Shown piece by piece: positions 6,394 to 27,059 of a DNA stretch of 29,604 nt; position 1 is the stretch's first letter, and every line of letters starts with the position of its first letter. The notes under the pieces are model-generated. The model was not told the DNA's origin. It saw only the letters and a program-made list of their open reading frames with translations, and did no database searches. A program made the translations under genes and the position numbers. The stretch is from positions 1 through 29,604 of IMG/VR virus record IMGVR_UViG_3300032516_000127; one strand, written 5' to 3'. Origin of the DNA: a virus.

Positions 6394-9300
6394 TCACCGA
6401 ATAATGTTCACGAGGATCGTGTCCGACGTGATGTCGGCCCCGGTCGTATCGCTCGTGCCCGTCGTCTTGATCGTGATGGTGCCGCTCTCGAGGTTTTCAC
6501 CGGGCGAGGCGACACACAGATAGGTGGTGGCCCCCGTGCCGATGCCGGACCAGAGCCCCCACGCCTGCTGCGTCGTCGAGGTCAGCCGCATCGCCGTCAC
6601 GTCGAAGGCCCACGGGACGTTCTGCCAGGCTTGCTGTGTGATCTCGCAGACCTTCGTCGCGCCGAAGTACAGCGCCGCCTTCTTTTCGTGCGCGTTGTCG
6701 GCAAATGTCCCTTTGGCCTGGATGCGGATCGAGTGTCCCGCCGTCAGCAGGTAGTCTTCAGGGAGCGTCGTGCTCTGGAGGTCCTTCTCGCCCGTGCCTG
6801 ACGCACCCGTGACCGCCGTCGCGTTGTACCGGGCGTTGCCCCAGGTGCCAAGCGTGCTGTCGATATAGCCGAAGACCTTCACCTTGTACTGGTCGCTATA
6901 GGTGTGGATCTCGACGTCGCCCGTCGTGTCGTTCAGCCCGAGCATCTTCATCGACCCGCCGAGCAGTGTGGAGTACGCCGTGATGTACCGGTTGGCATAG
7001 AGCCGAATCACGTCGTAGGCATCGTAGTAGCCCGCTGACGACCAGTCGCCCGCATACAGGATCCCGAGTTTGACGTTCCCCGCCTTCGTGACGCTGAACT
7101 CCGCGGCGCTCGGGGTGGCATCACCCGCCCAGAACCGCACATCATCACCGGAGACGACCGCCGACGAGAGGCCCACGGTCCCGGTATCGCCGGTGAGGCT
7201 CGTCGCGCCGATCGTCCATCCCCCGATCGCCCCGGCCGGCGCCGTAATCGTGCCCGTGAATGACGCGGATCCGTCCGCCGCTAGGTGGATCTTGGTGGTG
7301 GCGTCATGCCCGATCCGCACGCCGTTCGTCGGATCGATCTTCACCCAGGCGCCCGCCGGCGAGCCGAACGCCGCGCCGTAGGTGTCGGCCGAGTAGCCGT
7401 ACAAGCCGTTCAGGTTCCCGATCGCCCACCGCTCCTCGAGATTCGAGTACGTCGTCCCCGTGCGGACGGTCCCGACGATGGTCGGCCCATACTGCGTGGC
7501 GCTTCGAATCGACCGATCCGAGTAGAGATCGATGTACCCGTCGCCCGTCGTGCCGGTGTTGAACACCGCATCCCCGGCACTCCAGGCGTTCGCTCCGGAG
7601 CCGTCGAGATTCCGGGCCACCGCGTACACGTAGGGTCCGCTCACTCCCGCATCGGTGCGTAGGGCGTAGTGGGCCGCGACTTGTGCGGGACTCAGCACGT
7701 GGTTATAGATAGCCACTTCGTCGAGCGAGCCGGGCCAGCCGTACCCAGACACGGAGTAGTTTCCGAGAATGAGCCCCGTCGATCCAATCCCCACGTTGCC
7801 CGTCCACGGCAACGGGCTCAGTGGAGACCCGTTCAGGTACACCCGCTGCGTCGTGCCGTCATACGTCAAGACGACGTGATGCCATTGGCCGATGGTGAGG
7901 GTCCCGTCGTACGTGACGTGCTGAGTGCTGCCGTCCCAGACGACCATGTAGAGCGCAGACCCATAGGCCCCAAAGTAGGTTCCTGCCGTGCCACCGCACC
8001 CCAGAAAGATCTTCAAACCCGTCAGCGCGGACGGGTTCAGCCACATTTCAATCGTGAGCTGATTCGTGCCATTGATCGAAGACGTGGACCCGCCGGGGGT
8101 TGTGACCTTCGCCCCATCTGTCCCATCGAGCGTGATCGCGGTCGTGCCGTCGCTCAGCGCTCCGGTCGCCCCGAGCGTGTATCCTCCGCTGTACGTCCCG
8201 TCGTACTGATTCCCGCTCCAATCCATCGCCGTCGTGCCGCTCGACTCGCCCACTCTCCAATACCCCAGTGGAGCGTCGTCAAGGACGGCCGCAGCATACC
8301 CCCGCGTCACTGGGGAGCCGACCGCCATAAACTCGACGGCGCCGTTCGCCTCCAAGTAGACCCGGTCGTCGTTGCTGAGCTGGTTATGCTTGACATGGAG
8401 ACTCGTCGCGCTCTCCGTAAGGTCGGCGACCAGCATCGTTGTCGGCCCCACGAGGATGCGCCCGCCAATAGTGCCGATCGTCTCTTGCGCCACAAGCGTT
8501 TCCACGCGGAGTTCTGCCGCATGGAGCGTCAGCCATTTCTTCGTGAAGGCGCCGAGGTCGGAGACGTACGTGGTTTCGGGTGCGACCGTCCCGTCGACTT
8601 GTAGCTTGTAGTCTGGCGTGAGCGTCCCGAGGCCGAGGTTGCCGAGAACGTAACTGTTGCCCGTCCCGGTGACGTGGAATTGCGCGTTGACGGTCAGATA
8701 TTGATTCGCCACCGCCGCAGCGAACTCGCCGTAGATGAGTGCTTTTGTTCTGCCGTCTGCTTCGCTCGCCCGCATGGCGTTGTCGATGAACAGCTTCATC
8801 GCTCCGGTTTCGTGGTAGCCAGCGCCATACCCCACAAAGACGCCACCGCCGTTCGTTGTCGTGCTCAATCCAGCAAGCGCGCCAAGAAAAGTGCCACCAC
8901 TGGCGAGGTTGAAGGCCCCGGCGCTCACGCCCCAGGCGGCGTTCCCGCTCCCTGAAACGTTGGTATAGAGTGCGCCGTACCCACCGGCCGTATTACTGTT
9001 CCCATCGACAGTCATCCGGAGCGTGTTGGCACCAAACCCGCTGTTGCCGTTCCCCACCGTATTATTCAAGAGGCTATAGACCCCAAACGCAGCCAGGTGC
9101 CCTCCGGTTGTGTTCGCGAGAAGCACGCCCTTGCCCCAGCCCGTGTTGTTGGTTGAGGCCATACCAAGTGGGTAGGTCGCCACATCCGTGGCGGTGATCA
9201 CGCCCGCGGTCAAGTTGTTGCGGTTCGTCCAATCGTCAGCACCCAGGCTCGCATCAGAGGCGGCGTCGATGTAGGTCGTGGTGGAGTTGTCGCTGAGCGT

Positions 9301-10470
9301 CGTCACGAGGAAGTACGACGACCCACCCGCCTTCGTGCGGTAGAGTTTTCGAGCGGTGACGCGAGCATCAGACGAGAGGGGAATGGCACTGAGCGGGACG
9401 GTATTGTTGCCGCCGCCCGTTGTCACGACAGATGAGACCGTGCCGAGTTCAGTCTCACCAACCGCCGTGACAAACGTCGCCTTATAGAGATGCGCCCCAT
9501 CGTTAACGCTGCCGCCTGCTGTCGGCGCGCCGCCTGTCGGTGCGCCAGGGGCAATGACTAAACGAAAGGCGAGGTTCCCGCCAGAGGTCAGCGCGGCGCC
9601 GCTGACCGGGTTCGGCGTCCCGAATCCCACGTTGCCGCCGAAATACGATGGCGTGGCTCCGACCGTGTAAATGGCATAGTTGGCCGCGCCGGAGGTGAGC
9701 GACCCGATGTAGACGCCGTACTGCGAATTGAGGGATGCGCCAGACCCCAAATAGCTGTTTTGGACACTCAACCCCATGGCGAAGGTGACCGCGCGCCCCG
9801 CAGCAATGTCATTTCGCGCCCAAAACCCAATCGACTGCGCCGTGGTGCCGCCAGCCCCATCGTTCCAGTTGTACGCCGTTACGCCCGTGAGGTTGTCCAC
9901 GGTCCCAGCGGTATTGCCTGTGAGCCCGTTGACCCTGAGGACTTGTTTCAGGGACGAGTCGGCCGCCAGATACGTCGCCCCCACGATGAGTGTTTGCTGT
10001 TCGCCAGCGGTCCCGACGGAACGGGTCGCCGACACATAGAGCGGAGTACCCGCCGAGACCTCTGGAAGGCCCACATCACCGCCCGCCTCGACGATGACGC
10101 TGTTGCCAAGCGTGCCCGTCCCCGTCCATTTCGACACGTAGCCAGCGGTGCCGCTCCCGCCAACTGTGCCCGCTCCCAGCGCCTCCCATCCGGTCATGCC
10201 CGTGCCTGAGGTCTTGACGTAGACCGTTGTCGTCAGCGCCCCATTCGACCGCACGTAGAGGTCGCAGACCTTGCCGGTCACCGCGCCTTCGGGGGAGCCG
10301 GAGCCAGACTTCAGCGTGCAGGTGGTGTTGTCGAAGACGAACCGCGTCGCCAGGCTACTCACCTGCGCGCCGGCGCGCGTCGGCCAGGCCAGCCACGCCA
10401 GCAGGACGAAGACCGTGGCCGCGCTACGCCGGAACAATCTGCACCCCCGGGTGTGAACAGACAAAGACAT
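6394..10470 (-). CDS. Large mosaic tail fibre/host-recognition protein with LamG domain
   Basis: A 1358-residue protein. Residues 10-36 look like a signal peptide (RRSAATVFVLLAWLAW then RAGAQ). Residues about 310-405 form an Fn3-like sandwich known from tail proteins (YKATFVTAVGETE through ARKLYRT to TTTYIDA). Residues about 440-560 carry GNSNTAGGYGALY-type repeats as in trimeric fibres and adhesin heads. Near 612-625 is GLGTLTPDYKLQV, a common fibre motif. Residues about 735-940 are a laminin-G/concanavalin-like domain (WRVGESSG, MWLNPSAL, QWHHVVLTYDG, SLDEVAIYN), probably sugar-binding. The remaining 400 residues are beta-rich. The gene overlaps the hub gene by 47 bases. The ATG has a weak ribosome site; TTG 10437 keeps the signal peptide, and GTG 10362 would remove it. 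Confidence 0.88.
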   Translation of the reverse strand: MSLSVHTRGCRLFRRSAATVFVLLAWLAWPTRAGAQVSSLATRFVFDNTTCTLKSGSGSPEGAVTGKVCDLYVRSNGALTTTVYVKTSGTGMTGWEALGAGTVGGSGTAGYVSKWTGTGTLGNSVIVEAGGDVGLPEVSAGTPLYVSATRSVGTAGEQQTLIVGATYLAADSSLKQVLRVNGLTGNTAGTVDNLTGVTAYNWNDGAGGTTAQSIGFWARNDIAAGRAVTFAMGLSVQNSYLGSGASLNSQYGVYIGSLTSGAANYAIYTVGATPSYFGGNVGFGTPNPVSGAALTSGGNLAFRLVIAPGAPTGGAPTAGGSVNDGAHLYKATFVTAVGETELGTVSSVVTTGGGNNTVPLSAIPLSSDARVTARKLYRTKAGGSSYFLVTTLSDNSTTTYIDAASDASLGADDWTNRNNLTAGVITATDVATYPLGMASTNNTGWGKGVLLANTTGGHLAAFGVYSLLNNTVGNGNSGFGANTLRMTVDGNSNTAGGYGALYTNVSGSGNAAWGVSAGAFNLASGGTFLGALAGLSTTTNGGGVFVGYGAGYHETGAMKLFIDNAMRASEADGRTKALIYGEFAAAVANQYLTVNAQFHVTGTGNSYVLGNLGLGTLTPDYKLQVDGTVAPETTYVSDLGAFTKKWLTLHAAELRVETLVAQETIGTIGGRILVGPTTMLVADLTESATSLHVKHNQLSNDDRVYLEANGAVEFMAVGSPVTRGYAAAVLDDAPLGYWRVGESSGTTAMDWSGNQYDGTYSGGYTLGATGALSDGTTAITLDGTDGAKVTTPGGSTSSINGTNQLTIEMWLNPSALTGLKIFLGCGGTAGTYFGAYGSALYMVVWDGSTQHVTYDGTLTIGQWHHVVLTYDGTTQRVYLNGSPLSPLPWTGNVGIGSTGLILGNYSVSGYGWPGSLDEVAIYNHVLSPAQVAAHYALRTDAGVSGPYVYAVARNLDGSGANAWSAGDAVFNTGTTGDGYIDLYSDRSIRSATQYGPTIVGTVRTGTTYSNLEERWAIGNLNGLYGYSADTYGAAFGSPAGAWVKIDPTNGVRIGHDATTKIHLAADGSASFTGTITAPAGAIGGWTIGATSLTGDTGTVGLSSAVVSGDDVRFWAGDATPSAAEFSVTKAGNVKLGILYAGDWSSAGYYDAYDVIRLYANRYITAYSTLLGGSMKMLGLNDTTGDVEIHTYSDQYKVKVFGYIDSTLGTWGNARYNATAVTGASGTGEKDLQSTTLPEDYLLTAGHSIRIQAKGTFADNAHEKKAALYFGATKVCEITQQAWQNVPWAFDVTAMRLTSTTQQAWGLWSGIGTGATTYLCVASPGENLESGTITIKTTGTSDTTGADITSDTILVNIIR

Positions 10471-12347: not shown

Positions 12348-15300
12348 TCACGTCCGCACCAACCCGTACTGCTTCAGCACGGCGGGGAGATAGGGCGCCA
12401 TCGCTTCCGCGACCTGGCGGCCGTCGATGACGATCTGCGGACGGAACACGATCTCTGGCACCGTCGGCGTGGGCGCTGACCGGCCCATCCCGAGCGCGGC
12501 GATCGCGCGCGCGAGCACGTCCCCCATGAACCCGACCGGCCCGATCAACTCGGGTTCCCCGCCTTCACCCACGCGAGCCATGTGCTCGCGCGTGATGAGG
12601 GCGCCGGTGGCGTAGCCAGGCGTCCGACTGGGAGAGCCGCGCTGATCGTCTCCGCCGCCCTCCTCGGGTGGCACGTAGTTCTCGTAGTCGTACCCGACTT
12701 TGACGCGGACCTGGGTTGGGATGTCTTTGATCGCCGGCGTCAGTTTGTTCCTGAGCGTCTCGATCAGTTCGTCCATTTTGGCGACGATCTTGTCGACTTC
12801 GGAGATGATCGGCGCGCCGAACTTGATTCTCGACAGGTCGGTCATCTTCACGCCGTTCTCGTCGAAGAGCCGCCCTTGCTCAAGCAGCGTTTGCGCGAAC
12901 GACTTGAACTGCTCCGGCACCTCCGTGCCGAGCCGCAGGGCCTCGCTGATCGTCGTCCCGATCTTCTCGCTCATCAGATTGAACGTGTCGCCCGCGTCGG
13001 CGTTCATGTCGATGAGCGTCTGGTAATCGTCCCAGATGGCCTTGAACGAATCCTGCAGTTTCGCGCCCTCGAATTTTGTACCGAGGCTGGCGAGCGTGCC
13101 GCCGTACTTCTCCGCCAGCTCGTTCGCTGTCTGCCAGTTCATGACCGCGCGGTCGTCGAAGAACTGCTGTTTCCCCGCGATGGCGAGCTCGAGCTGTTTC
13201 TTGGGGACCTCCCCCAATGTCTCCACGATCGCCCGCACGGCCGCGTCGTAGGCTTTGATGTCCTTGGCCTGCCACAGGTTCTTGAGCGCGGCTTCGGCCT
13301 CCGTGCCCGACTTGCCCAGGAACGCGTAGCCCTCGCTGACCGATTTGATCATCGCGTCGCTACCGCCGAACTGCCCTTCGAACTCGGCCCGCGCCTGCTT
13401 GATGTCCTTGTACGCCTTGCTGGCACCCATCAGCCCGCCGATCAGCCCCGCCACCCCGCCGACCAGCGCGCCGATGGCGGTGCCCAGGACGGGCACCACG
13501 GACCCGACGGCCGCCCCGGTCGCCGCACCCGCGCCCGCGCCACCGAGCGCGCCGGCGGTTTTCCCGTACTTCTCGCCCAGATACTTGCCGATAAGGAAGC
13601 CGCCCACGGCAACCCCTGCGCCCGCCCCTACGCCAGCCGCCGTGGCACCAAGCCCCGCGCCTGCGCCCGCCCCACCTCCCACCGATCCCGCGCCCTCCAT
13701 GCCGGCCGCCACCCCGCCAGCGCTGGCCGACAAGCCCCCACCGCCCGCCGCCGCCGCGCCGCCAGCCGAGGTGAAGAGCGAGCCGAACGACGCCAGCCCG
13801 CCGCTCGTCTTGCTCCCCATACCGGCGAACAGGCTCGAGAACCCGCCGGCAAACGCCGCCTTGTTCCCGGCGAGGCCGGCGAGCATCCGCTTCAGGAGGC
13901 CGCTGAGGAAGGCGTCGGCAATCTCCGCGAAGATCCGCACCACCGACGCTTTCAACGAGGCCCAGATGTCCAGGAAGCCATCCTTGAACCCTTTCGCGCC
14001 GAGCATCATCTGCGCGAACGTGCCAGACCACGCGGTCTGGAGTTGCCCCAGTATGTTCTTGATGCCAGGCAAGACCGACGTCGCCCATGTCTTCGGCAGC
14101 TCGCCGGTCACCGCAATCTGCGCCTCGACCATCTGTTTATAGGCCGCAACGGCCGCCGGCGCCGATGCGCCCACCGACGCAGCGATGAGCCGGTAGTTGA
14201 CCTCCGCCGCGGCCGCGACCTTCCGCAGCTCGTCCGGCGTCTTCAGCCCGAAGGCGTGGTAGGCGTCGGTCGTGAGCCGGACCTTGATCGCCTGCGTATC
14301 CAGCGTCTCGCTCTGGGTATTGGTTGCGCTAATCAAATCGCCGATCTTCTCCGTGGGGAGCGAGAGCTCCCAGGCGGTGAAGGCGTCGCCCGCGTGAGTC
14401 GACGCCGAGCGGGCGCGATCGAGCGCCGCTTGCAGCCCGTCGACTTTCACGCCACTCGCATCGGCCTTCTTCGCCAGCGCCTCGAGATCTGGCAGGAGCG
14501 CGATGAGCGCCTGTTCCAACGGCATGGCGCCCAGCTTCGCCGCGGCGTCGATCTGTTTCTGGAGCGCCGCCATGTCCTCGTTGGCGACCGCGCGCGTCGT
14601 CAACCCGAGCGTGTTGAGCTCGCGCCCAAGCTTCATCGCCTCAGCCGCCTGCTCCTTCATGGCCGCGGTAGATTTCTTCTCCTGCTCCTCCTGCTTCTTG
14701 GCTTCCGCCGTGAGGAAGGCGATCGCCTCCTTGCTGAGATGCTGGGACTCCGCCCACGCATTGAAGGCCGTTTCATTCGTGCGGATGGCTTTCACAGACG
14801 CCGTCAGCGTCTCGTTGGTAAACCTCCCGAGTTCGTCGGCCAGCGCACTTTGCTTGGTCTTGATGGTGTCCAACAGGCTGGCGTGGGCACGATTCGCGTC
14901 CATGTGCTTCACGGCCGCGTCCATGAAGCGCGCCTCGGCATCGACCCCTTGCGTCGTCGCGCCCGTGTTTTTCTGCTGCGCGTCCAGCCAGGCTTTGGAC
15001 GGGCCGATCAATGATTCGATGCCCTTGCGCAGCCCGTCATAGCCCTTTTCCCCGAGCACCGCCGACACACCCGCGGCCGCCACCACCGCGCCCAGCGCCG
15101 CCCCGACTGTGGCGAGTCCGCCCGGGATCGCCGTGAGCGCCGCCCCAATCTTGGTGAGCGGCGCGACCCACCCGCCAAGCGTGACGCCAAAGCCTTGCCA
15201 CCCGAAGGCCATCGTCATCGCCCCGAGCGTCTTGATCCCGCCCGCCGCCGAGAGCGCCCATCCACCAAGCTGTGTCTTGACGAGCGCCCCCGACGCGGCG

Positions 15301-16124
15301 TTAAGCGCCCAGAGACCACCGGCCGCGACAAGGGCCGCCGCGCCAGCCTCTTTTAGTGGTCCTGGCACTGATACCCACGCGGACTTGAACCGCTCGACGA
15401 GGTCCATAGTGGTGGTGAGGGCCTTCGCGATCCCTTCGCCGATGACGTTCTTTGTCTGTGTCCACAGCCGAGACAGGCCGTCGCCGATCGCATCGAACGC
15501 GTACACCGCCTCTTTGCTCATCTTCGGCGCGGCCGCACGGAGTTCATCGACCTTCGCGATCAGTGAGGGCAGGACTTCGGCTCCGGATTTGCCGAAGAGG
15601 TTTGTCGCCGCGGTCACGCGCTTGACGGGATCCTCGATCTTGGCGACTTCGCGGGCGATCGTCATGAACTGTTCATCAGGGGTGAGCTGTTGGAACGCTT
15701 GGACTTCAATCCCGAGCCCCTTCAGGGCCGCGATCGCGGAATCGTCCCCCGCGCCGAGGCGCTTCTGGAGCATGGAGACAGCGCTGGTGAGCTGCTCCAG
15801 CGTGTTGCCCGACTGCTCCGCGATGTACTTGAGGTCCTGCACGGCCGTCACGGACATGCCGAGTTTGTCGGCGAGCTTCACGGTCGCGTCGGCGTCGTCC
15901 AGGAGTTCCTTGCCGAAGCGGACCAGGCCCGCCGCGCCGAGCGCCACGCCGAAGATCCCAGCGAGTGAGGAGGCCCCACGCAGCGCAGACCCCAGCCCGG
16001 ACGTCGTGCCGGTGGCGCCTTCGGTGTCCTTCTTGAACCCCGCGATGTCCCGCCGCGCCTTTTCCAGCTCCGCGGCGGAGAGGTTCTTCGCTTTGATGAC
16101 GATCTCGATGATCTTCTCACCCAT
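12348..16124 (-). CDS. Tail tape measure protein
   Basis: A 1258-residue protein, the largest helical protein in the window, placed right after the G/GT chaperones as in lambda-like phages. It sets tail length and threads through the tail tube. The N-terminus is helical and charged (IKAKNLSAAELEKARRDIAGFKKD), followed by hydrophobic segments near 50-75 and 258-361. A Lys/Glu/Ala coiled coil lies around 475-505 (EEQEKKSTAAMKEQAAEAM). Residues about 755-900 are a long Gly/Ala-rich, membrane-active-looking stretch (GVGAGAGVAVGGFLIGKYLG, VPVLGTAIGALVGGVAGLIG). From the rule of about 0.15 nm per residue, the tail would be near 190 nm if the protein is unprocessed. No peptidase or lysozyme domain is visible. 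Confidence 0.95.
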   Translation of the reverse strand: MGEKIIEIVIKAKNLSAAELEKARRDIAGFKKDTEGATGTTSGLGSALRGASSLAGIFGVALGAAGLVRFGKELLDDADATVKLADKLGMSVTAVQDLKYIAEQSGNTLEQLTSAVSMLQKRLGAGDDSAIAALKGLGIEVQAFQQLTPDEQFMTIAREVAKIEDPVKRVTAATNLFGKSGAEVLPSLIAKVDELRAAAPKMSKEAVYAFDAIGDGLSRLWTQTKNVIGEGIAKALTTTMDLVERFKSAWVSVPGPLKEAGAAALVAAGGLWALNAASGALVKTQLGGWALSAAGGIKTLGAMTMAFGWQGFGVTLGGWVAPLTKIGAALTAIPGGLATVGAALGAVVAAAGVSAVLGEKGYDGLRKGIESLIGPSKAWLDAQQKNTGATTQGVDAEARFMDAAVKHMDANRAHASLLDTIKTKQSALADELGRFTNETLTASVKAIRTNETAFNAWAESQHLSKEAIAFLTAEAKKQEEQEKKSTAAMKEQAAEAMKLGRELNTLGLTTRAVANEDMAALQKQIDAAAKLGAMPLEQALIALLPDLEALAKKADASGVKVDGLQAALDRARSASTHAGDAFTAWELSLPTEKIGDLISATNTQSETLDTQAIKVRLTTDAYHAFGLKTPDELRKVAAAAEVNYRLIAASVGASAPAAVAAYKQMVEAQIAVTGELPKTWATSVLPGIKNILGQLQTAWSGTFAQMMLGAKGFKDGFLDIWASLKASVVRIFAEIADAFLSGLLKRMLAGLAGNKAAFAGGFSSLFAGMGSKTSGGLASFGSLFTSAGGAAAAGGGGLSASAGGVAAGMEGAGSVGGGAGAGAGLGATAAGVGAGAGVAVGGFLIGKYLGEKYGKTAGALGGAGAGAATGAAVGSVVPVLGTAIGALVGGVAGLIGGLMGASKAYKDIKQARAEFEGQFGGSDAMIKSVSEGYAFLGKSGTEAEAALKNLWQAKDIKAYDAAVRAIVETLGEVPKKQLELAIAGKQQFFDDRAVMNWQTANELAEKYGGTLASLGTKFEGAKLQDSFKAIWDDYQTLIDMNADAGDTFNLMSEKIGTTISEALRLGTEVPEQFKSFAQTLLEQGRLFDENGVKMTDLSRIKFGAPIISEVDKIVAKMDELIETLRNKLTPAIKDIPTQVRVKVGYDYENYVPPEEGGGDDQRGSPSRTPGYATGALITREHMARVGEGGEPELIGPVGFMGDVLARAIAALGMGRSAPTPTVPEIVFRPQIVIDGRQVAEAMAPYLPAVLKQYGLVRT

Positions 16125-16133
16125 GCGTCCGTC

Positions 16134-16601
16134 TCATCCCCGCTGCCGTCGGATCCGTTCGCGCCAGCTCGCGAGTCCCGCCTGGCCGCGCTGGGCCTGC
16201 AGGTCCTCTACCAACGCCGCCTGGTACACCTGCCGCGCGATCGTCAAGCCGTTGAGCATCCGCGCGTCTTGCTCTCCCACGCTGCCTGGCCCGGGCAGCC
16301 AGGCCAGCCGCCAGTACGCCCCGAACCCGCTCACCACCAGGTCATGCGTCACCGCGAACCACGCCAGGAGCTCCGTCACCTCGGGATCCCGCGCGATGCG
16401 AACCGGACATTCCGTCAGTTCAAGGTCGCCGTCGACCCAGACGACGGTGGATCCGTCTCCGCCATCGCAGCCTCGCTCACGGGCGTACCCGCCGGCGCGG
16501 CACCGTTCGCAGCTGTCCCCGGTCTCGGCCCATCCACTGCCGGGCCGCTCGCGTCGAGCGCGCCGGAGGAACGCGTCGAATCGGACGGCGACCCGGAGGC
16601 T
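16134..16601 (-). CDS. Tail assembly chaperone GT: T extension made by -1 frameshift
   Basis: This frame is joined to the gpG-like frame by slippage at 16607-16601. The fusion is 139 residues of G plus 155 from here, about 294 in all. After the shift it reads SLRVAVRFDAFLRRARRERP, then a cysteine set (C170, C173, C184, C204 in fusion numbering) that could bind zinc, then VVWVDGDLELTECPVRIARDPEV and a helical end. The frame has no stop from the slip site to 16134. Its only own start candidate is GTG 16379, which has a poor ribosome site and would lose the cysteine part. In lambda the GT fusion recruits tape measure and tube during tail assembly; the tape measure starts nine bases downstream here. 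Confidence 0.85.
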   Translation of the reverse strand, partial: SLRVAVRFDAFLRRARRERPGSGWAETGDSCERCRAGGYARERGCDGGDGSTVVWVDGDLELTECPVRIARDPEVTELLAWFAVTHDLVVSGFGAYWRLAWLPGPGSVGEQDARMLNGLTIARQVYQAALVEDLQAQRGQAGLASWRERIRRQRG

Positions 16602-17017
16602 TTTCCCACGCGCGCACTCATGCTCGACCCGGACGCGATGGCATACATCAGGTCAATCGCCAGCCGCGGCTCCGTGCCGAAGCAGTCCAGGAGGTCTTTC
16701 CCGGTTGTCATCTCGCGGCCGTCGACCTTGAGTTGGTTAGGCTCCACGGTCACATAGGTTTCGATCGCCGTCCGCACCGTCTGCTCGGTCTCCTGGTCCT
16801 CGCGCGCATGGAGCGCCTGCAGGTCGCGCAGCGCGTCACTCGTCATCGTCTCCGCGGACGTGAGCTCGTGCACTTGTCGTTTTGTAAGCTGGTCAATCGC
16901 ATCCATCTCGCGCCGATGGCGCTCTGATTGCTCGAAGGTCAGCCGCATGACGCGGACGTTGAGGAGGACCTCGCCAATCTGTACCGTCGTCTTGTGGGTC
17001 TTGCTGAGGGTCACCAT
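16415..17017 (-). CDS. Tail assembly chaperone G
   Basis: The unshifted product is 200 residues. Residues 1-139 form the folded part: an N-terminal beta strand pair (TTVQIGEVLLNVRVMRLTFEQ), a charged helical centre and VEPNQLKVDGREMTTGKDLLDCF. After the slip site the zero frame becomes a low-complexity Ala/Ser/Gly/Pro tail, typical for frames that overlap the T extension. Role: tail assembly chaperone expressed between the tail tube and tape measure genes, not expected in the finished virion. AGGAG lies nine bases before the ATG, directly after an 18-bp palindrome that could affect initiation. Confidence 0.85.
   Translation of the reverse strand: MVTLSKTHKTTVQIGEVLLNVRVMRLTFEQSERHRREMDAIDQLTKRQVHELTSAETMTSDALRDLQALHAREDQETEQTVRTAIETYVTVEPNQLKVDGREMTTGKDLLDCFGTEPRLAIDLMYAIASGSSMSARVGKASGSPSDSTRSSGALDASGPAVDGPRPGTAANGAAPAGTPVSEAAMAETDPPSSGSTATLN
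16601..16607 (-). promoter_or_regulatory. -1 ribosomal frameshift site GGGAAAA
   Basis: On the minus strand the heptamer G-GGA-AAA is correctly phased with the gpG-like frame: GGA is codon 138 and AAA codon 139. It matches the X-XXY-YYZ rule and is nearly the lambda G/GT site. A perfect 5-bp hairpin (GCTCG-acg-CGAGC) lies about 42 bases downstream at 16547-16559. A weaker CGTC/GACG stem sits about 13 bases downstream. Neither is proven to stimulate slippage. Confidence 0.88.
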
Positions 17018-17234: not shown

Positions 17235-18404
17235 CTATGCCAGCGCGAATTTGAGTTCGTCGTTCAGCCCGTCGGCGGTCTCGCAGCACACGCCCTTGAA
17301 CGGCCATGTGGGCACACCATCCGGGTCATCATCTTCGGGCACCGAGAAATCTACCGCCGGCGCATAGAGGGCGATGATATTGCCCTCGGTGAACCCGGTC
17401 TGCTTGTGGATCGCGACGCGCGTGCCGGCCTCTGCCAGGTCGTAGATGACCGCCTCGTCACCCACTAGGGCGTCAAGGCCGAGAGTTATGTCTCGAGTCC
17501 CGGTCATCAGGATGCCCTCGGCAGATGAGTACCCATAGGAGTTCTCACGCAGCGCGACGCCCGTGCTGATCTCCACGTCCAGCTTGATGAACTTGTACGC
17601 GGCACCGCCGACATAGAGTTCGCCAGTGAGACCCGAGGGGGGGTTCTGCGCGCCCACGGTCGTGAAGGCCGCGGGCTTGGTGGGCGCCGGCGTGACTTGG
17701 GTCTTGGCCTTGAACGTAGCCGTCAGCCGGGCTTCGTCGTTCTGCGCAAACGAAAACCCCAGCTTCTCGCAGACGGCGCCTTTGATGATCTTGGAATGGG
17801 TCGTGTCGGCAGTCCGGTAGTGCCCGAAGGCCAGCGAGGACGCTACCGCCGAGGTCAGTTTGTATGTACAGCAACCCTTGACCGCATCGCCGGTGGCCGG
17901 CGCTTGAGGCAGCGCCGGCGTCACGGTCAATGCCAGCGTGTTGATGGCGGCGATCCACCGCACGTATTTGCCGGGGAACGTGCCGCCCGTGCAGGCCACC
18001 AGGATCGCTTGCCCCACGACGAGCCCCGTTGCGGAGGCCACCGTGAAGACCGTGGTCGTGGGGGCGGGCGAGGCCGCCACCGTCGTCGCCAGCGTGACGT
18101 TGCTCTTGGCGCCCATCGCGTGTTCCAGAATAGGGTCACATTCCGCGAGCGTGTTGAGGGTGCCGCTCGGCTGAATGAGGGCCTCAAGGGAGGCCCCCGC
18201 CGAGGCGCGCCGGTCCAAACGCATCGCCACGCCAGGGCTCACCTTCTTCGCCGGGCTATTCACCCGGTTGAATGGGCTGAAGCTCGGCTTGAAATTAATG
18301 TGCCGCATCGCATGGGTGGCCACCAGCGTGGGTGGCACGCCGTATGATGTTTCGGTCGCCACGAAGAGTTGTACCAGTCGTCCGACCACTAGCGTTTCAG
18401 CCAT
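17235..18404 (-). CDS. Major tail (tube) protein
   Basis: A 389-residue protein just upstream of the G/GT pair, the usual place of the tube subunit. The N-terminus (VGRLVQLFVATETSYGVPPTL), the following beta-rich region and the C-terminus (ITLGLDALVGDEAVIYDLAEAGTRVAI, VDFSVPEDDDPDGVPTWPF) fit long tube proteins of siphophages. Residues about 113-177 are an inserted beta domain (TVFTVASATGLVVGQAILVA, TGDAVKG), probably exposed on the tube surface. It starts four bases after the previous stop, with GAGGAG inside the end of that gene. The gap and hairpins after it may help make tube far in excess of chaperone. No other gene nearby fits the tube better. Confidence 0.82.
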   Translation of the reverse strand: MAETLVVGRLVQLFVATETSYGVPPTLVATHAMRHINFKPSFSPFNRVNSPAKKVSPGVAMRLDRRASAGASLEALIQPSGTLNTLAECDPILEHAMGAKSNVTLATTVAASPAPTTTVFTVASATGLVVGQAILVACTGGTFPGKYVRWIAAINTLALTVTPALPQAPATGDAVKGCCTYKLTSAVASSLAFGHYRTADTTHSKIIKGAVCEKLGFSFAQNDEARLTATFKAKTQVTPAPTKPAAFTTVGAQNPPSGLTGELYVGGAAYKFIKLDVEISTGVALRENSYGYSSAEGILMTGTRDITLGLDALVGDEAVIYDLAEAGTRVAIHKQTGFTEGNIIALYAPAVDFSVPEDDDPDGVPTWPFKGVCCETADGLNDELKFALA

Positions 18405-20906: not shown

Positions 20907-22868
20907 CTAGGCTCCGGCGTTGGTGAGCGCGCCTCTGAAGTCGACCGCGGCCACGCCGTAGTCGAAGCGCACCTTCATTTCAGCGCCGTCGGTGTTCCAG
21001 CCGTCCTTCGTCTCCAGGACTGGGCTCGCCTGCCCCTCGAGGAACGCCACCTCGAGAACGGGCGCGACACTCGGGTCGGCGAACAGATACCGGCGCGTGC
21101 CCGTAATCCGCGGGCTGTCGACGATGTCGCGGAACAGGTTCTGCGCCATGTTCGGGCGCTGCAGTTTGTTCGCGGTATCGGGATCGTACTGCGCGGCGTT
21201 GATCACGCGGGCCGTGCCCCCGAGCGTGATCGGCACGAGCAGGACCGCCGGCCGGAGGTCGAGGTACTGATGGCCCCACGGGTCCGTCTGGCTCGCCATC
21301 CCCTGACGGTCCAGGTCAAGCGCCACGGCCGAGAGGGCCGCGCCCGTGGTCAGGTTCGCATGCGCCGCCGCATCGAAGAGCGGCGCGCTGCCCATCGTCG
21401 GGCCGAGGTTGCTGTTGAGGGCCAACAGGGCGTAGACGTCCACCTCCACTGAGAGCCCAGCCGCACGGCCGAGCATCGTGAGCAGGCGCGCGAACGCGCC
21501 CATGTCGTCGTTGACGATCATCTGTCGCGAGACGTTGATGATGTTGCCCTTCGTCGTCGCGGTGATCGACGCTTTCTCAGCATCGCTGATCGCCTTGTTC
21601 TTGAACTCGCCGTTCTCATTGAGGGCGTCGAGCGCCCCGAACGAGCCCATGCGATACCGGTTGTGGGCGCGGAAGTCACTCACGGTGCCCCGCGCGCAGA
21701 ACTTCGACCAGGTGTCCGGCTGCGTGGCGTAGGCCGCCTGCAGCACCTTGTGCATGGTGTTCTCGAGCAGCGTCGCGAAGTCGCTGGTCGACTGCGTGAT
21801 GTCCCGGCGCACGAACGCCTCCGACACGATCCGCATCTTGTCGAGCCCGCGTGTCGAGATGTTCAGTCGACGCAGGCACTCGCGCGCCACGTCCACGAGC
21901 GTCATCCCGCGGAACTCACCCGGGTCGCCCGCGTCCTTCACGTCGGTGCCGGCCTTGGCCAGCAACCAGCTCGTGACGCCCCGCAGGAACTTGTTACGGG
22001 CGTCCTCCCCCAGTTCCACGCGCACCTGCTGATCGGTCGGGGGCTTCGTGGCGTCGGCCGCGGCCATCTTCGCGAAGACCTCGACCCGCGCGGCGTCGAG
22101 CGTGAGGCCCCGCACGACCAAGTCCTCCGCGACCTTTGGGTCGAGTTTGGCCACGCGCACGATCGTCTGGATACCCGTGATACGCTCGCGCTCAGCGCCC
22201 CGGATCGCCTCCGCGTCGGGGGGCGGCGCCGCGGCCGGCTTCGGCTCGGGCTTCGTCTCGATGGGTTTTGTCTCTTCGGCCATGACTTCCTCCTCTGCCC
22301 GTCGCACAATCACGCACGGGTTTGTTTCCACGTCCTTGACGCTGCGCACGCGAGCGCCCACGTCGGCCCCCATTGGGACCATGCTGATTTCGTAGGGCTC
22401 CCAGTCAACGGCGAGCCTGATCGGAAAGCCATCCTTGGGAACCGCCTGCTCTTCAAACCGATGGACGCGGTAGCCCACGCTCACGTTGCGGATGATCTTG
22501 TCGCGGACATCCTGATAGTACGGTTCCACGTCGGCGCGCTTCGAGAACCGCACCGTCGCGCGGGCCTCGCCCTTGAGCAGCTTCACGGAGTCGTCTTCCA
22601 CGACGCCGATGACGTTGCCGACCTCGTAGGCGCTATGGGCGTTCAAGAGCGGCGCGCCGTGGTTCAGGCGGTCGAGGCGGACGTGTTCCGCGTCCAGAGA
22701 CAACCGCTCCCAGTACCGCTTGCCTGTGTCCCAGTCATAGCGCAGCACGTCGCCGCCAGCCTTCGTCGAGAACGTTACGTCCACGGTGCGCTTGTCGGCG
22801 TCGATCGCGCCCACGTCCGCACGGCGATCGAGCGGCGGCACGGTGATGGCTTGTGGCGTCGGCTTCAT
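20907..22868 (-). CDS. Prohead protease/major capsid protein fusion
   Basis: A 653-residue fusion of two normally separate proteins. Residues about 20-185 are an HK97-type (S78) prohead protease: RLNHGAPLLNAHSAYEVG holds the likely catalytic H78, NVSVGYRV the likely S130, and WEPYEISMVPMGAD the likely third member E160. Residues about 190-300 are charged, Pro/Ala-rich and helical, as expected for a scaffold or delta segment removed in maturation. Residues about 300-653 resemble the Mu gpT-like major head subunit (FATLLENTMHKVLQAAY, RMGSFGALDALNENGEF, YLFADPSVAPVLEVAFLEG). Such fusions are known in other phages. AGGAG eight bases before ATG 22868 decides the start over GTG 22886. Confidence 0.92.
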   Translation of the reverse strand: MKPTPQAITVPPLDRRADVGAIDADKRTVDVTFSTKAGGDVLRYDWDTGKRYWERLSLDAEHVRLDRLNHGAPLLNAHSAYEVGNVIGVVEDDSVKLLKGEARATVRFSKRADVEPYYQDVRDKIIRNVSVGYRVHRFEEQAVPKDGFPIRLAVDWEPYEISMVPMGADVGARVRSVKDVETNPCVIVRRAEEEVMAEETKPIETKPEPKPAAAPPPDAEAIRGAERERITGIQTIVRVAKLDPKVAEDLVVRGLTLDAARVEVFAKMAAADATKPPTDQQVRVELGEDARNKFLRGVTSWLLAKAGTDVKDAGDPGEFRGMTLVDVARECLRRLNISTRGLDKMRIVSEAFVRRDITQSTSDFATLLENTMHKVLQAAYATQPDTWSKFCARGTVSDFRAHNRYRMGSFGALDALNENGEFKNKAISDAEKASITATTKGNIINVSRQMIVNDDMGAFARLLTMLGRAAGLSVEVDVYALLALNSNLGPTMGSAPLFDAAAHANLTTGAALSAVALDLDRQGMASQTDPWGHQYLDLRPAVLLVPITLGGTARVINAAQYDPDTANKLQRPNMAQNLFRDIVDSPRITGTRRYLFADPSVAPVLEVAFLEGQASPVLETKDGWNTDGAEMKVRFDYGVAAVDFRGALTNAGA

Positions 22869-22879
22869 AGGGAGTACTC

Positions 22880-23143
22880 CTACCACTGGCGCGGTGCGCC
22901 CGCATTTGATTGGGACGTAAAATGCTCACCCACGCCGTGGGCGACCTGATCGGCGACGGCCTGTCGCACGACCTCCGGCAGCGATCGTCCTGACGCCAGC
23001 GCCACGTGGCAACATGCGTCGAACAACGGCTCAGGCAGGCGCACGCTCGTGCGCACCATCGGCGTGGCGACGCGCGGGCGGCCGCGGCGACGGTGCATCA
23101 GTTGGTTTGTGAACACCGCGCGGTTCTCGGGGCTGACGATCAC
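22880..23143 (-). CDS. Small ribbon-helix-helix DNA-binding protein
   Basis: An 87-residue protein starting at GTG 23143 in a GTGA overlap with the portal stop; AGGAG lies seven bases before it, which rules out the longer frame to 23227. Residues 29-67 fit a ribbon-helix-helix fold: strand VRTSVRLP, helix EPLFDACCHVALAS, turn GRS and helix LPEVVRQAVADQV. A basic arm (MHRRRGRPR) precedes the strand. Such proteins bind DNA as dimers and are often repressors, or the antitoxin half of toxin pairs, but no toxin partner is adjacent. Position between portal and capsid genes suggests control of late genes or a packaging role; both are inference. Confidence 0.78.
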   Translation of the reverse strand: MIVSPENRAVFTNQLMHRRRGRPRVATPMVRTSVRLPEPLFDACCHVALASGRSLPEVVRQAVADQVAHGVGEHFTSQSNAGAPRQW

Positions 23144-24942: not shown

Positions 24943-25170
24943 CTATTCCCTGAACTGACGCGCCACGCGCGGACACCACGCTCGGCAATACACAAGGAAG
25001 TCCGCGCGCGCGATGCGCCGGTAGGTGCGGCCACCGGGACGACGAATCTCCACCGCCGCGAGAAGACGGCCGTCCACAATCTCGCCGCGTACGAATTCGG
25101 TGTCGACGCCGATAATGTCGGCCGCTTCACGCAACGTCAAGGTGGGGGTCGCGTGCGTCATTGTCTTCAC
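24943..25170 (-). CDS. Small helix-turn-helix DNA-binding protein (excisionase/MerR-like)
   Basis: A 75-residue protein starting at GTG 25170 in a GTGA overlap with the large terminase stop. AAAGGA lies eight bases before it, while ATG 25161 would be 17 bases away, so GTG is preferred. The body LTLREAADIIGVDTEFVRGEIVDGRLLA, followed by the wing-like RRPGGRTYRRIARADFLVYCRAW, is a winged helix-turn-helix of the excisionase/MerR type. It may bind DNA near the packaging genes, act as an accessory terminase factor or regulate late genes. No integrase is in the window, so an excisionase role is unproven. A minisatellite starts one base after its stop. Confidence 0.75.
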   Translation of the reverse strand: MKTMTHATPTLTLREAADIIGVDTEFVRGEIVDGRLLAAVEIRRPGGRTYRRIARADFLVYCRAWCPRVARQFRE

Positions 25171-27059
25171 GTGCGTCGTCCTTTCAGCCAGCCGCCCTCG
25201 CGCCGCGGGGGAATCCACCCTCCCGGTTTCTTGACCATCGGCGCCGCAGGTTTCACGGGGCCGCCGCCCATCCGCGCCGCGAGCGCGTCCAAGTCCGGAT
25301 GCGTCAAGCGCAACGCCGCCAACGCGTAGACGGCGCAATCGAGCGCATCGTTTCTCGGGCGCATCTTCTTCCACGTCTGTGTCGGGACTCCCTTCGTAAA
25401 CCGCGTCAGCAGCCGCTCGCTCGTCAACTGCGCCGCGAGTTCTTCGTCGCACCAATCGGCCATCGGCAGGTGCACGTAACCGCGGCCTTTCTCCGTGACA
25501 TTCAAGCGCGAGATCCAGAGTGCCTTCGCCGCGTCGACGCCGATGGTGTAGAGCGGTACCTGGCGTTGCGTGCGGCCCCACCGTCGAGGGGAGGGTGACG
25601 ACACGATCGGCCGCTGCCCGTCTCGACCGATGACGGCATACACGCGCCGGGCCGCCTTGCGCGCCGCGTAGTCGTAGACCATCGTCGTCCGATGGCCGGC
25701 GGAGTCGATGCACGTCGCGTGAATGGACAGAGCGACGCCGCTGGCGTGGAGGTAGGTCCGATCGAGCACTTCCGTGAGTGCGGTCCACGGCTCCGGCTGC
25801 GAGGTGTCGCCGCCCAATGTGTCGCGATCGACGATCCAAGATTCCTCACCGGGGCCCCAGCCCATCACGAGCACCTCGAGGCGGTCGTCCTGCACGTCCA
25901 CGCCCATCGTGAGGAGGCACACCCCACCTGGCGCCAGCGCGTCGAACGTCTCTCGGCGAATCAGGAGCAGGTGCGGTTCGACGCCATCGCCTTGATCGTG
26001 TTCGATTGGTTCCCCGAGCGTGGTGTTCTGCCAGGTGTGCATCTCGCTACGGTCGCCGGCCTTCTGGGCGGACCTGGCCCGCAGAAAGCTCGCCACGATC
26101 TCGCGCAGCGACGACAGCGGGGAGTAGGCCTCCCACACATGGAACGAGACGATCGCGTGATCCGCGCGGTCAGGACAGGACGGGCGCCACTCGCCCCGCG
26201 CGAGAATCGCGACACGCTCCGCGTCGTCGATGCCGTAGTCGCACGCGCTGCAGTGCAACCGCGCGGTCTGTGGATCGTCGTGTATCCACCGCACCTGGGC
26301 CCAGGTCAGTGGTTGCATCACCCCGCAGGCCGGGCAGGGCACGTGGTAGTGTCGTTGGTCGCCACGTTGGAACCACGCGTGGATCGGCGCGTCCTTGAGC
26401 GTTGGGGATGAGAGCAGCAAGATCTGCCGGCGGCGGCGGTACGTCGTCGTCCGCTTGATCGCGATGCTGATCGTGTTGCCCTCGCCGGGCAGCTCGGGTG
26501 GGTAGCGATCGAGTTCGTCCAGGATGAGCAGCCGTACGGGACGCGCCGCGAGCGACGCCGCGGAGTTCGCCCCCGCGAGCGCCACCTGCCCTCCGCGATA
26601 CGTGATCAAGAGCGTGGTGTTGGAGGACCCCGTCTGCCGGGGACGTCCCACGAGCTCGCGTAAAATGGGACTCGCGTCGATGAGGGGCCGCAGGCGGTTC
26701 TTCGAAAAGTCCTCCGCCATCGGCTTCACCGTCGGTTCCACCACGAGCACCGACGACGGATCGTGCGCAATCACGTACGCAATCCGGCAGAGCGCAATCG
26801 AGGTCTTCCCGAACTGGGCGCTGCCCATCACCACGACGAATTCCACGCCGGGCTCATGATGCGCGTCCATGATGCCGCGCTGGTACGGCGCGAACGCGGT
26901 CTGCCACCGCGTGCCCGCGAGCGGCCCCGACGTCACAATCAGTTCGCGATCGGCGAACTGCGAGACGGTCAACTCGGGCGGCGGGGTGTACCCCGCGCGC
27001 ATCGTCATCAGGACGACGAAGACGGGTGACGGCATGTGGCGAGCCGGGGTCGGGGTCAT
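25167..27059 (-). CDS. Terminase large subunit, GpA family
   Basis: A 630-residue packaging motor and nuclease. The ATPase part shows a Walker A-type motif GSAQFGKTS (79-87) and a Walker B segment RLLILDELDRYP (176-187, DE at 181-182), with LLLSSPT (214-220) as the coupling motif. A four-cysteine pair CPAC (242-245) and CSAC (270-273) is typical of GpA-type terminases. The nuclease part has acidic residues in GVDVQDDRLEV (D388), CIDSAGH (D452) and RPRNDALDCAVYA (D571, D574). Length is close to lambda gpA (641). It begins in an ATGA overlap with the small subunit gene and acts with it on concatemeric DNA at the portal. Confidence 0.96.
   Translation of the reverse strand: MTPTPARHMPSPVFVVLMTMRAGYTPPPELTVSQFADRELIVTSGPLAGTRWQTAFAPYQRGIMDAHHEPGVEFVVVMGSAQFGKTSIALCRIAYVIAHDPSSVLVVEPTVKPMAEDFSKNRLRPLIDASPILRELVGRPRQTGSSNTTLLITYRGGQVALAGANSAASLAARPVRLLILDELDRYPPELPGEGNTISIAIKRTTTYRRRRQILLLSSPTLKDAPIHAWFQRGDQRHYHVPCPACGVMQPLTWAQVRWIHDDPQTARLHCSACDYGIDDAERVAILARGEWRPSCPDRADHAIVSFHVWEAYSPLSSLREIVASFLRARSAQKAGDRSEMHTWQNTTLGEPIEHDQGDGVEPHLLLIRRETFDALAPGGVCLLTMGVDVQDDRLEVLVMGWGPGEESWIVDRDTLGGDTSQPEPWTALTEVLDRTYLHASGVALSIHATCIDSAGHRTTMVYDYAARKAARRVYAVIGRDGQRPIVSSPSPRRWGRTQRQVPLYTIGVDAAKALWISRLNVTEKGRGYVHLPMADWCDEELAAQLTSERLLTRFTKGVPTQTWKKMRPRNDALDCAVYALAALRLTHPDLDALAARMGGGPVKPAAPMVKKPGGWIPPRREGGWLKGRRT

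Follow-up and report, generated by a model that had tools for sequence, protein, structure and literature searches.

A probable lambda-type G/GT tail chaperone pair with a Cys-rich T extension and a changing slippery site

The slip site used by phage lambda is GGGAAAG. In lambda, a low-level −1 frameshift yields the proteins gpG and gpGT at about 30:1, with G binding the tape measure protein and T binding the tube protein, and this G/GT mechanism is widely conserved (PMC5009743). Here we analyze a DNA of 29,604 nucleotides from an uncultured phage, hereafter the window (IMG/VR virus record IMGVR_UViG_3300032516_000127, positions 1 to 29,604), which very probably (about 93%, judged from sequence) encodes a lambda-type G/GT chaperone pair produced through programmed −1 ribosomal frameshifting. 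The frameshift mechanism is of the standard, well-known phage G/GT kind. What is new, as far as the compared loci reveal it, is a Cys-rich T protein family present in no library searched, together with the turnover of slippery sites within that family.

Layout of the Locus and the Slip Site

Pfam and PHROG assignments place the tube gene, G/GT and the tape measure gene in this order, all on the minus strand of the window. The features are as follows.

17235..18404, minus strand: major tail (tube) protein, 389 aa, expected partner of T (Pfam PF18906 Phage_tube_2, E 1.4e-11, above cutoff)
16415..17017, minus strand: G open reading frame, tail assembly chaperone-like, 200 codons (1-139 common to G and GT, 140-200 the unshifted tail)
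16601..16607, minus strand: slippery heptamer G_GGA_AAA, in phase with G codons 138-139
16540..16596, minus strand: candidate stimulatory hairpin, 4-5 nt 3′ of the heptamer, from computed folding
16415..16600, minus strand: unshifted G tail overlapping T, Ser/Ala/Pro-rich
16134..16601, minus strand: T extension in the −1 frame, 155 codons plus stop
12348..16124, minus strand: tape measure protein, 1258 aa, expected chaperone client (PHROG tape measure matches, best E 4.1e-16)

An earlier note on this DNA had placed GGGAAAA in phase with the chaperone frame and had described a −1 frame open for 155 codons, from the slip to 16134, that reaches the tape measure gene. Both claims are borne out: the heptamer runs from 16607 to 16601, with GGA as codon 138 and AAA as codon 139, and the coordinates confirm the open frame, whose stop at 16136-16134 is separated by a gap of 9 bases from the tape measure ATG at 16124. 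The −1 frame translation opens with SLRVAVRFDAF and does contain the CxxC pair and two further cysteines that had been reported (C31xxC34, C45 and C65). Read in the T frame, the window has its closest upstream stop 17 codons ahead of the slip, and no ATG, GTG or TTG follows it until the GTG at 16379, which is T codon 75. Automatic gene calling would consequently drop about 74 residues, including all of the conserved cysteines, in agreement with the loss of roughly 75 residues predicted earlier.

The length of the open frame was dropped as evidence by itself, as 9.7% of in-phase positions reach 155 codons by chance (570 of 5848 positions where the −1 frame stays open for 155 codons or more, counted in the nine other minus-strand genes); open frames are frequent in this GC-rich contig. 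Two other in-phase heptamers of the form XXXYYYZ, with Y being A or T, occur in those nine genes and open frames of 51 and 46 codons. Because the open length is weak evidence and the in-phase heptamer is rare but inconclusive, the case rests on conservation across relatives. Codon usage favors the T frame over the zero frame 3′ of the overlap (0.168 versus −0.681). Within the 61-codon overlap the T frame is not favored (−0.059 versus 0.051), and codon usage was dropped there as an uninformative means of choosing the frame.

Several other genes of the window were also compared. Along its whole length, the 659-residue protein encoded at 20907-22886 (minus strand) matches the PHROG "major head and protease protein" (E 1.1e-184), and the protease and the major head protein are therefore fused in one gene. 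Downstream of the tail genes, a 1358-residue ORF at 6394-10470 (minus strand) has no PHROG match at E 0.001. The terminase large subunit (25167-27059, minus strand) is closest to those of Roseobacter phages CRP-821/822/823/831, at 43% identity; these phages are small (29-31 kb), and the annotation of CRP-823 has one single tail assembly chaperone gene.

The Slippery Site and the T Frame across Relatives

Relatives of T were collected from IMG/VR contigs, giving 14 distinct loci including the window, from about 12 lineages; identical or near-identical copies (L002, L008, L015 and L020) were left out of the 14. All 14 loci have a −1 slippery site immediately 5′ of the conserved T, in phase and at one shared position of the alignment. 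The sites are distributed as follows.

G_GGA_AAA: window and L003 (2 loci)
C_CGA_AAA: L004 (1 locus)
A_AAA_AAA: L005, L010, L013, L016, L019 and L021 (6 loci)
A_AAA_AAC: L007, L009 and L014 (3 loci)
A_AAA_AAG: L017 (1 locus)
G_GAT_TTT: L018 (1 locus)

One T family thus holds six slippery sequences, two of which, G_GAT_TTT and C_CGA_AAA, are not X_XXY_YYZ with identical X. G_GA in the first three heptamer positions is a documented variant, and C_CGA_AAA contains CGA AAA, which is near the Bacillus subtilis cdd site CGA AAG (PMC5009743).

T can be aligned from its very first residues across the relatives, and therefore the conserved reading frame starts at the slip. Consistent start codons are not seen in this frame: in 13 of the 14 loci there is no ATG, GTG or TTG in the first 43 T codons, nor within 170 codons of open frame upstream, the exception being L018, where a TTG stands at T codon 10. 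A single T-frame start is also found farther upstream in L019 (188 codons) and in L021 (178 codons), close to where G begins. The earlier note had named homologues that do without the slippery site and start T on their own as the observation that would count against a frameshift; the search for them returned a site at each of the 14 loci and no conserved T start. The aligned sequences themselves show the slippery site, the phase it keeps, how it is conserved, and that the conserved T frame depends on a frame change.

The four cysteines (window T residues 31, 34, 45 and 65) are invariant in all 14 loci, as are R7, F8, W24, W55 and P66. T is more conserved than G, the identities of relatives to the window being 72, 62, 47, 49, 47 and 45% for T and 52, 29, 22, 24, 27 and 32% for G. 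Furthermore, where the two frames overlap, T is better conserved than the zero frame in 15/15 pairs compared (79% against 56% identity between the window and L003), with the changes concentrated at position 3 of the T codons in most pairs. Since the T frame is the better conserved of the two, the unshifted tail of G looks like a by-product of the overlap.

These comparisons also bear on other ways of explaining the locus. T could be a separate gene started inside the overlap, for instance at GTG 16379 and coupled to G termination, with the heptamer being incidental, and this GTG does give an 81-residue ORF just after the G stop. However, the product would lose some 74 conserved residues and every one of the four conserved cysteines, the start positions are unrelated among relatives (anywhere from T codon 44 to 87 in 13 loci, codon 10 in L018), and the slippery site is never missing, which makes a separate start very improbable. 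We judge it just as improbable that the frame is changed by RNA polymerase slippage, with bases inserted into or lost from the mRNA, instead of by the ribosome. Runs of 7 to 9 A in L005, L010, L013, L016, L019 and L021 would allow polymerase slippage, but in the window and L003 the run is only four or five A long, the CCGAAAA, CTAAAAAAC and GGATTTT sites of other loci are poor polymerase slippage sites, and every site is in the codon phase required for ribosomal slippage. A disabled gene or a sequencing error in what is truly one continuous frame can practically be dismissed: homopolymer indels may arise in single contigs, but the frame break has an identical position in 14/14 loci from different metagenomes with differing local sequence, and an independent contig, L002, reproduces both T and the upstream part of G at 100% identity.

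RNA structure was considered as a further support for programmed −1 ribosomal frameshifting. The hairpin predicted in the window (−32.4 kcal/mol) ranks in the top 2.7% for stability among the contig's coding segments. Across the loci folded, structure prediction gives a strong hairpin in L003 (z −3.11), a moderate one in the window and in L007 and none in L005 and L010; a conserved downstream RNA structure was dropped as a family-wide feature because of the latter two. The candidate hairpin of the window may help frameshifting, its z of −1.58 against shuffles being not individually significant and the structure not being conserved.

Family Membership of G and T

Searches of Pfam, PHROGs and NCBIfam gave no family match for G or T: NCBIfam returned a single row, for G, far below its cutoff, and T has a weak match to Pfam DUF6300, also below cutoff. 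Neither protein has a match among the phage records searched, and for T none was found among PDB sequences or in a scan of bacterial and archaeal genomes. Tail chaperone families diverge fast, so a missing PHROG or Pfam match does not exclude membership.

The G model has a mean pLDDT of about 84 in all five models, and the viral structures that match it best bear the name tail assembly chaperone (E 0.003, probability 1.00, with a modest TM of 0.43), suggesting a modest resemblance of G to tail assembly chaperones. The five T models differ in confidence (pLDDT 58-82), and fold searches with T returned nothing significant. The gene order in the window (tube gene, G/GT, tape measure gene) and the G model agree, and together they support the tail chaperone identity proposed in the earlier note. 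In the relatives, PHROG profiles place the tape measure gene directly 3′ of T in L007, L013, L017 and L021, and a tube-size ORF precedes G; L007 alone has a profile match to tube, and the ORFs of this size in L017 and L021 match no PHROG. Together, these observations would identify a family of tail chaperones that escapes sequence profile libraries.

Proposed Mechanism and Comparison with Known Systems

In the proposed mechanism, the majority of ribosomes would make G (200 aa), stopping at 16415, and a minority would slip by −1 on G_GGA_AAA, where the tRNAs on GGA and AAA would re-pair with GGG and AAA. Translation would then enter T and produce a GT protein of 294 residues. By analogy with lambda, the part common to G and GT would coat the tape measure protein, while recruitment of the tail tube protein would fall to the Cys-rich T part. 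We infer the occurrence of the shift, its frequency and these roles of G and T from the features described above. The frameshift had been called canonical, which is right for the form of the heptamer and not for its strength: G_GGA_AAA is described as inefficient in E. coli, yet G_GG.A_AA.A is present in IS elements that use frameshifting (PMC4066793), and it would therefore suit a low level of GT.

There are about even odds, in our estimate, that T is a previously undescribed metal-binding (four-cysteine) chaperone extension whose family swapped its slippery site several times (GGGAAAA, CCGAAAA, AAAAAAA, AAAAAAC, AAAAAAG and GGATTTT) with position and phase kept. If so, the family would form a natural series that illustrates how the level of frameshifting is kept despite replacement of the site. 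The homologous sites, with differing heptamers at one position, also lend themselves to a comparison of frameshift efficiency in one shared reporter.

Three known systems can be set beside this locus. The top viral structural match of the T model is phage Mu FS-gp41, a tail assembly protein, at a level that is not significant (E 0.4, TM 0.21). The HK97 tail assembly chaperone (PDB 2OB9) is, like the predicted G, a small chaperone, and VIA-align superposes the two over 90 residues (Z 4.0, rmsd 5.5), although this is a weak match with 6% identity that ranks below unrelated coiled-coil rows. The third system is lambda gpG/gpGT. The window differs from it in that its heptamer ends in A, its unshifted tail has 61 codons, its T has four invariant cysteines, and its G and T are without a sequence match to any PHROG or Pfam family. 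In both, however, the tube gene, G/GT and the tape measure gene follow in the same order, the −1 shift, predicted here, is placed near the 3′ end of G, and the T frame, which overlaps G, extends as far as the tape measure gene (PMC5009743 for lambda).
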